DNA from: an uncultured Alphaproteobacteria bacterium
GTDB lineage: Bacteria > Pseudomonadota > Alphaproteobacteria > RF32 > CAG-239
NCBI GenBank assembly: GCA_944392315.1
Contig: CALXWH010000014.1
Location: 1-37,463, forward strand
Reading direction: 5' to 3'
DNA: 37,463 nucleotides
Shown: piece after piece, positions 15,669 to 16,823 of the stretch
Layout of the letters: every line of letters begins with the position of its first letter
Position numbering within the stretch: position 1 is the first letter of the stretch
Notes under the pieces: generated by a model
Told to the model about the DNA's origin: nothing
Databases searched by the model: none
The model's input: the letters and a program-made list of their open reading frames with translations, nothing else
Made by a program: the position numbers and the translations under genes

Positions 15669-16823
15669 TTATAAGTTGTATTGGAAATTCAGCATAACCG
15701 CGTGCATATCGGCATTATTTCTCAGTTGTCCATAATATCCTAAGTAGGTTTTCCAGCTTTCTTGCTCTTTTAACTCTACACCGACATTAATTTCTGTTGC
15801 AAATCGTGATAAGCGCTTTTGTTCCAACTGTATAGGAATACTATATTGTGTTCCCCATAAATATCTTTGTGATGAAGAAAAATCATATAATCCTGAAAGT
15901 TTTACTTGCGGAACTAGTGTATATTTTTCATTTATTTGACATTCTTTTGCAGCTTTGATGCCCATAATACCAGTCAAGATATTTTCATCTTGTCCCTTAA
16001 TTGTGACATATTGCGCATTGTGGTAGTTATTGCTCCAGATATGCAAATATCTCATTCCAATTTCCGGTGTCAAGTACCCTATTTCATAACCGCTCATCAC
16101 CTGCGCGCCGATAGTTTGGAAATTATATTTTGAACCGTTCTCTTCATCAAATCGCGTATATCCATATGATAATATAGCATTTGTGTACCAAGCACTGGGT
16201 TTATATTCACCATATATGAACCCGCTATGTGTATTTGCGGCTGCTGAGGTTAATATCCCCTCTATATCATCATTTCGTAAATAACTATACCCTAATCCGA
16301 ACTTATACTTTTGCAAGCGTTTTTCATATCCCATTGTTAATCCTGACGTCGTGGCGTCTTGATACTGATTATGGGCTGCAATCGTATTAACCCATAGAGA
16401 AGAGTTGTTTTTTACATCTATTTGTTCACCACCGCCATAGGTGTTGATGCCACCAGTTGTTCTTGCCGCTATATTATTATATAAAATGGATGCATTTTGG
16501 ATAACAACATTCGTTGCATTAATATTTATGGGATCCGGCGTTTCTTTTTTAAGAACTAAATGAAGCGTGGAATCTTTCATAATACTATAGTCTTGCAGCG
16601 TATTTCCATCTTCTAGCACTTTTCCTGCAAAAATGAGTTGTTGTTTTTCCTCGGGGACATCTTCCTTATTTTTAATTTTTGCTTTTACATCTTCTATGCG
16701 GTCTGTGGGCTCAACTTCTAAAGTGATGTGTTTTCCGGTTAACGTTTTTATAAAAATTTGCATAGCCCAAGCGCTATTTGACCAAAGTATGACGCAAAGT
16801 ATGATACAGCAAAACTTTTTCAT
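15669..16823 (-). CDS. Secreted ubiquitin fused to an autotransporter beta-barrel
   Basis: 384 residues. Residues 1-20 are a signal peptide ending SAWA, so cleavage would leave Met21 as the new N-terminus. Residues 21-91 align without gaps to residues 1-71 of eukaryotic ubiquitin (hand count 52 of 71 identical). All seven lysines (K6, 11, 27, 29, 33, 48, 63) and the Leu8-Ile44-His68-Val70 patch are kept. The conjugation tail is not: after Leu71 the protein reads KKETPD instead of RLRGG. After a short linker (~92-140), residues ~141-384 form alternating strands like an autotransporter barrel: SSLWVNTIAAHNQYQ, GLTMGYEKRL, FGLGYSYLR and terminal MLNFQYNL. The passenger is thus ubiquitin itself, predicted to lie on the cell surface. 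AGGGGGAATAG precedes the ATG. Base composition is like the neighbours. No E1, E2, E3 or deubiquitinase gene is in the window. Confidence 0.93.
   Translation of the reverse strand: MKKFCCIILCVILWSNSAWAMQIFIKTLTGKHITLEVEPTDRIEDVKAKIKNKEDVPEEKQQLIFAGKVLEDGNTLQDYSIMKDSTLHLVLKKETPDPININATNVVIQNASILYNNIAARTTGGINTYGGGEQIDVKNNSSLWVNTIAAHNQYQDATTSGLTMGYEKRLQKYKFGLGYSYLRNDDIEGILTSAAANTHSGFIYGEYKPSAWYTNAILSYGYTRFDEENGSKYNFQTIGAQVMSGYEIGYLTPEIGMRYLHIWSNNYHNAQYVTIKGQDENILTGIMGIKAAKECQINEKYTLVPQVKLSGLYDFSSSQRYLWGTQYSIPIQLEQKRLSRFATEINVGVELKEQESWKTYLGYYGQLRNNADMHAVMLNFQYNL

Follow-up and report, generated by a model that had tools for sequence, protein, structure and literature searches.

Ubiquitin is a hallmark of eukaryotes and is normally absent from bacteria, yet the gene described here is predicted to show it on a bacterial surface. 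The questions raised by this locus are whether such a fusion of ubiquitin with an autotransporter is real, where its ubiquitin came from and what a bacterium would do with it. The gene (Ub-AT, for ubiquitin autotransporter) lies in a stretch of DNA of 37,463 nt, hereafter the window, which makes up an entire contig of a genome of 1.56 Mb and carries ordinary bacterial genes around Ub-AT.

Architecture of the Encoded Protein

The Ub-AT gene was found by open reading frame, translation and Pfam at positions 15669..16823 on the minus strand, as in an earlier note on this DNA, and encodes 384 amino acids followed by a stop codon. A Shine-Dalgarno-like AGGGGG (16829..16834, minus strand) was seen by eye 5 bases upstream of the ATG. 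The start of the protein, also read by eye, consists of MKK, a hydrophobic core and AWA directly before MQIF, and residues 1–20 (16764..16823, minus strand) are likely to be an export signal, with the AxA site (A18-W19-A20) of the Sec signal peptides of type Va autotransporters placed before ubiquitin Met1. This AxA-Met1 junction is common to all aligned Ub-AT rows having residues before Met1, which is the predicted mature N-terminus. The passenger, residues 21–92 (16548..16763, minus strand), displays the fold and sequence of ubiquitin, with PF00240 matching residues 23–93 at 88 bits (cut-off 25.4) and 52 of the 72 residues identical to human ubiquitin, a count made correctly by hand beforehand. 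The conjugation tail is lost, residue 92 being followed by KETPDP in place of LRLRGG, and so are R42 and R72, which are replaced by Q42 and K72.

The domain order is signal peptide, ubiquitin and barrel. A pore helix is predicted by the structure model at residues 103–119 (16467..16517, minus strand), followed by a 12-stranded barrel at residues 141–384 (15672..16403, minus strand), as at the C-terminus of type Va autotransporters. The barrel, on which the earlier note had staked its reading, was matched by PF03797 over residues 149–363 with 85.5 bits (cut-off 26) and by TIGR01414, and its model matched the structures of EstA and NalP; the barrel profile, run against PDB sequences, gave only three V-ATPase matches (E 0.51). 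Pfam, model and structure match together support an autotransporter anatomy and, as a prediction, secretion of the ubiquitin to the surface. The type Va beta-signal ends in an aromatic C-terminal residue; the last residue of Ub-AT is L, as in 8 of the 21 family rows, the other 13 having F. The asparagine N116 of the pore helix (codon 16476-16478) was present in 15 of 17 Ub-AT rows versus 1 of 13 ordinary autotransporters, and in the aligned range of the structure match it was paired with chain residue 1024 of 2qom. Self-cleaving autotransporters of the EspP type have an Asn at their intra-barrel cleavage site, and by analogy Ub-AT may be cleaved inside the barrel and released through N116.

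Type Va autotransporters such as EstA, NalP and AIDA-I carry a beta-helix or an enzyme as passenger, whereas Ub-AT carries a single ubiquitin of 71–72 residues. No earlier report of ubiquitin as the passenger of an autotransporter was found among the open papers listed by the searches, where the known work on the secreted ubiquitin of Bacteroides fragilis was alone in touching the subject, which bears out the initial remark that the architecture was unfamiliar, and a 19-residue string searched in papers gave no match.

Distribution of the Fusion

Full-length relatives, 54–55% identical to Ub-AT, were found in three genomes of the same genus (G003, G008 and G010) and in one of another genus (G035), and PF00240 matches occurred in 4 of the 18 genomes of the genus and in 6 of the 152 of the family. 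In another genome (G021, L006:1203-2358), the ubiquitin and the barrel are encoded in two frames that overlap, through either a natural break or an assembly error. A barrel-only profile built from six Ub-AT sequences and run against 5.8 billion proteins gave 17 clusters at E ≤ 1e-5, with 190 member sequences, and a ubiquitin domain was present in all 17; long ordinary autotransporters could not show in this search because it admits only proteins of about 160–509 amino acids. PF03797 was given for 7 of the 17 clusters, the remainder sharing the barrel by alignment (51–59% identity over the whole protein), and it had no match in G035, G317 and P0256. Beyond the window, the same architecture was met in five other family genomes and in the 17 clusters, which belong to a second database and may overlap with those genomes. 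An assembly artefact that joined eukaryotic to bacterial reads is a vanishingly improbable source of Ub-AT, because the architecture recurs in these five genomes, which represent two genera (one copy with the frame break), and in the 17 clusters. The junction is the same in independent copies, and the bacterial neighbours and a GC content of 0.34 in the ubiquitin part, compared with 0.38 in the window, likewise speak against a chimera.

In a barrel tree, the Ub-AT barrels (18 rows) stood on one side of a branch with support of 100/99, forming a clade of their own apart from 16 ordinary autotransporters, with warnings of long branches that meet (those of the genus g58, described below, with L025, of L024 with Ub-AT of the window lineage, and of G317 with the rest). 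The tree excludes L015, L022 and L023, the near-copies P0002, P0245, P0247, P0251 and P0252 and the fragment P0257. A barrel dedicated to ubiquitin is suggested by these sequences, since all 17 profile matches carry ubiquitin and the barrels form a separate clade.

A phylum sample of 398 genomes gave only two PF00240 matches, the window genome and a weak one (26.6 bits) in a protein that is built differently. Among viral contigs, 5 stretches matched a pattern and none encodes a Ub-AT relative; among phages, two unannotated faecal records matched the barrel part only; and among plasmids, three records were retrieved, none spanning the whole of Ub-AT (ubiquitin parts in Ruminococcus albus and Pseudoalteromonas and an autotransporter in Thalassospira). 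The marker PF03219 for an intracellular life was matched in 0 of 136 family genomes, a result without weight because its control was matched nowhere either. A scan of genome contigs gave five loci, including L021 and L025, that match the barrel part only, at 29–33% identity. The records of distant barrel relatives name Alphaproteobacteria or Proteobacteria and come from the rumen and horse faeces; from these records of distant relatives, a gut habitat of the Ub-AT host, as first proposed together with its class, is likely.

Genomic Context

The gene is flanked on the left by an aldo/keto reductase with a 4Fe-4S domain (14303..15541, minus strand) and on the right by a CNNM/CBS/CorC protein (16979..18355, plus strand, ATG at 17042), both assigned by Pfam. 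In G003, G008 and G016, the same two neighbours (86–94% identical) flank a NUDIX hydrolase gene at the Ub-AT site (PF00293, 63 bits, in G003), and alignment with these genomes, judged by eye, bounded the swapped segment on the left somewhere from about 15600 to 15660 and on the right at about 16979. Since the same neighbours enclose the NUDIX gene, genes have been exchanged at this site, with either gene as the possible newcomer. The Ub-AT genes of G003 and G008 are located elsewhere and are 54% identical to the window copy; the copies of these near relatives differ too much, both in sequence and in position, to correspond by simple vertical descent.

Four look-alike membrane proteins of about 153 amino acids are encoded around the Ub-AT gene of G010 (L032:111-3756); the two of them that were scanned gave no Pfam family above cut-off. 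Three such proteins occur in G003 and two in G008, at a contig end. Elsewhere in the window, a putative amidoligase (PF12224) lies beside an N-formylglutamate amidohydrolase (window:8488-10939).

A Probable Second Lineage of Fusions

In a class sample, PF00240 was matched at E ≤ 0.001 in 6 of 385 genomes, five of them above cut-off: the window genome, G021, G317, G415, G319 and the weak G525. The G317 protein, from another family, has a trichomonad-type ubiquitin and a TIGR01414 match of 47.3 bits with none to PF03797. G415 and G319 belong to the genus g58, have genomes of 3.7–3.9 Mb and encode a signal-peptide-like start, ubiquitin and a PF03797 barrel (97.9 and 87.6 bits, respectively). Within g58, PF00240 was found in 4 of 24 genomes (G415, G547, G540 and G319), all four with a similar barrel. 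The g58 proteins thus share with Ub-AT of the window the signal-peptide-like start, the ubiquitin and the autotransporter barrel (PF03797 in the scanned G415 and G319), but they have a longer linker, a ubiquitin that is not trichomonad-type and a barrel placed in another clade of the barrel tree (100/100). A single clade of window-lineage and g58 ubiquitins was rejected (AU p 0.0007). Because the barrels form separate clades and one ubiquitin clade is rejected, the fusion would have arisen at least twice, apparently in both cases within Alphaproteobacteria. If a ubiquitin on an autotransporter, protist-type in one case, was made twice from different ubiquitins and barrels, then extracellular ubiquitin display would be useful to bacteria. 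In G319, a phage integrase adjoins the Ub-AT gene (L045:2149-3153).

Origin of the Ubiquitin

The passenger shares 60 of its 72 residues with a trichomonad-type unit of the metagenomic polyubiquitin P0125, which differs from human ubiquitin at eight sites (T12H, S20T, T22R, N25D, R54N, S57Q, N60S and E64D). All eight P0125-type residues are present in the window Ub-AT; among the 18 Ub-AT units, 12 have 8 of 8 donor residues, 4 have 7 and 1 has 6, while P0256 has none. Of 879 other ubiquitin units among the matches listed, 831 have none of the eight and 8 have at least six, all from nameless metagenomic proteins. P0256, which combines a family-type barrel with 0 of 8 donor residues, may reflect strong drift or a replaced ubiquitin, and its placing in the ubiquitin tree is tentative (AU p 0.33).

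The best single-stretch PDB match was 5xy3_m, with 118.7, 122.4 and 155.3 bits in three queries; 5XY3 is given in PMC8215155 as a Trichomonas vaginalis ribosome. In all three queries, its scores fell within 0.3 bits of those of a same-length mock protein with the P0125 unit and about 20 bits above a human-ubiquitin mock, and because of this equality of match scores the trichomonad ubiquitin is taken to be probably of the P0125 type. In a ubiquitin tree of 72 columns, with few resolved forks and a bootstrap that had not settled, 16 Ub-AT and 8 metagenomic rows were joined (97/97) apart from 20 other eukaryotic rows. The transfer from a eukaryote proposed at the outset is supported by the donor residues, the tree and the 5xy3_m scores and can be narrowed: the sequences make it likely that the passenger was taken from a parabasalid (trichomonad-type) protist. 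If true, a protist gene has entered a bacterium, the reverse of the transfers from bacteria to Trichomonas that PMC12612818 reports.

Selection and Surface Faces

Among G003, G008 and G010, dN/dS was 0.13–0.27 in the ubiquitin and 0.13–0.22 in linker and barrel, and these close copies are under purifying selection. Between the window copy and these three, dN was about 0.13 in the ubiquitin and 0.43 in the linker-barrel part, with dS saturated and not computable; against G035, the values were 0.20 and 0.43. Among 19 distinct ubiquitins of the family, excluding P0256 and G317, the number retaining the residue was 0 for R42, 0 for Q49, 2 for R72, 3 for I44 and 10 for V70. Each of the five is conserved in 89–95% of 206 eukaryotic units that had been filtered to share no fewer than 50 of 72 residues with human ubiquitin. 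R42, Q49 and R72 are also replaced in G317, which keeps I44. With face sets and buried core assigned by the general layout of ubiquitin, and with sites and sequences that are not independent, conservation relative to random surface sets was lower in the I44-face set (p 0.00014), higher in the back face (helix/52–64 set; p 0.007) and weakly raised at the lysines (p 0.04) and at the eight donor sites (p 0.05). Each of the seven lysines is kept in 17 to 19 of the 19 ubiquitins.

R42 and R72 serve in E1 recognition. By the known route, a ubiquitin of this sequence cannot be conjugated, because LRLRGG is gone, and it is likely to imitate ubiquitin poorly toward canonical readers. The mimicry aimed at canonical readers of the host, as once suggested for this gene, is unsupported: throughout the family R42, Q49 and R72 have given way to other residues, as has I44 in most members, and V70 is kept in about half. 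The broader proposal that the ubiquitin faces the animal host, imitating host ubiquitin for readers or antibodies, would suit the likely gut habitat and the activity of extracellular ubiquitin described in PMC10892293, but the eroded reader face and the retention of eight trichomonad-type, non-human residues make it quite improbable. Such fusions do not always erode the I44 face, because three of the four members of the second lineage have retained R42, I44 and R72.

Ubiquitin folds fast and is very stable, and folded passengers can stall in autotransporters, so the ubiquitin may stay periplasmic. A stable, protease-proof cap or plug without information, perhaps even kept in the periplasm, would suit this stability and a surface display that is a prediction; it is nevertheless improbable, as solvent-exposed back-face residues that are more variable among eukaryotic units are conserved in Ub-AT, and the trees point to two separate fusions.

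Proposed Function

The best explanation, held tentatively and at slightly less than an even chance, is that a parabasalid-derived, tail-less ubiquitin is moved through the barrel to serve as a surface contact ligand for gut microbes nearby, most likely such protists. The signal peptide would export Ub-AT, and the ubiquitin, moved through the barrel, would be held on the outer cell surface. The eroded C-terminal/I44 face adjoins the end of the ubiquitin that is joined to the barrel and would therefore point toward the barrel, leaving the conserved F4/helix/52–64 face outward as the putative working face. Parabasalids would be the likeliest partners, because the likely donor is one and because its exposed residues have been preserved next to a barrel that has changed by about half. 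Partial engulfment of E. coli on contact has been reported for Trichomonas gallinae (PMC12612818). Counted against the contact ligand are P0256 without donor residues, PF03797 in only 7 of 17 clusters, the C-terminal L, the action of the exported Bacteroides fragilis ubiquitin (BfUbb) on bacteria and the retention of R42, I44 and R72 in most g58 members. A more far-reaching version, that one class, likely Alphaproteobacteria, made captured eukaryotic ubiquitin into a surface organ at least twice, and that here a conjugation-dead, 'acceptor-only' ubiquitin is shown by a dedicated autotransporter to parabasalids and manipulates their ubiquitin-dependent handling of bacteria, is unlikely.

A close rival of the contact ligand, possible but doubtful, is an antibacterial weapon acting by contact or at short range, in which the ubiquitin, on display or once released, would inhibit a target conserved in rival bacteria as BfUbb does. 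The comparison of Ub-AT with BfUbb (PMC3352274, PMC5705921), drawn in the earlier note, proved apt: both are eukaryotic-type ubiquitins with a signal peptide cut before Met1, no Gly-Gly and a presence that varies among strains, but BfUbb is a free, secreted protein of 76 residues with a C-terminal Cys, closest in its own paper to entomopoxvirus ubiquitin, while Ub-AT has a barrel attached and a trichomonad-type ubiquitin. Under non-reducing conditions in vitro, BfUbb and human E1 form a covalent complex (PMC3352274). BfUbb antagonises other B. fragilis strains (PMC5705921) and, among the papers found, is the only exported bacterial ubiquitin with a reported activity; sensitivity to it depends on Tyr119 of peptidyl-prolyl isomerase, in a later paper as cited by PMC12396204. 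In the commonest B. fragilis type, the ubb region holds higBA (PMC5705921), and the patchy presence of Ub-AT, with different genes at one site, resembles ubb. The N116 that marks Ub-AT could allow an EspP-like release, which, if it occurs, would favour the weapon. On the other hand, an anchored ubiquitin would hardly reach a target inside another cell, and the slower evolution of the ubiquitin part relative to the barrel is not what an arms race would lead one to expect. Ub-AT offers a cloneable system for the role of extracellular ubiquitin between microbes, a question opened by BfUbb.

Other candidates for exported ubiquitins were encountered on plasmids. In Ruminococcus albus 7, plasmid pRUMAL01 encodes a signal-peptide ubiquitin with a further part (L041:2935-3675) near PI-PLC-type and dockerin genes; this protein (WP_013483628.1) shares with Ub-AT the AxA followed by ubiquitin Met1 and a further C-terminal part, but differs in its Bacillota host, in Pfam matches to ubiquitin-like families only and in a ubiquitin that is not trichomonad-type. 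A plasmid gene of Pseudoalteromonas shioyasakiensis (L042:1971-4261), annotated as Ig-like, encodes a protein that begins much like a signal peptide, continues with a diverged ubiquitin domain (55 bits) and has a very long remainder.
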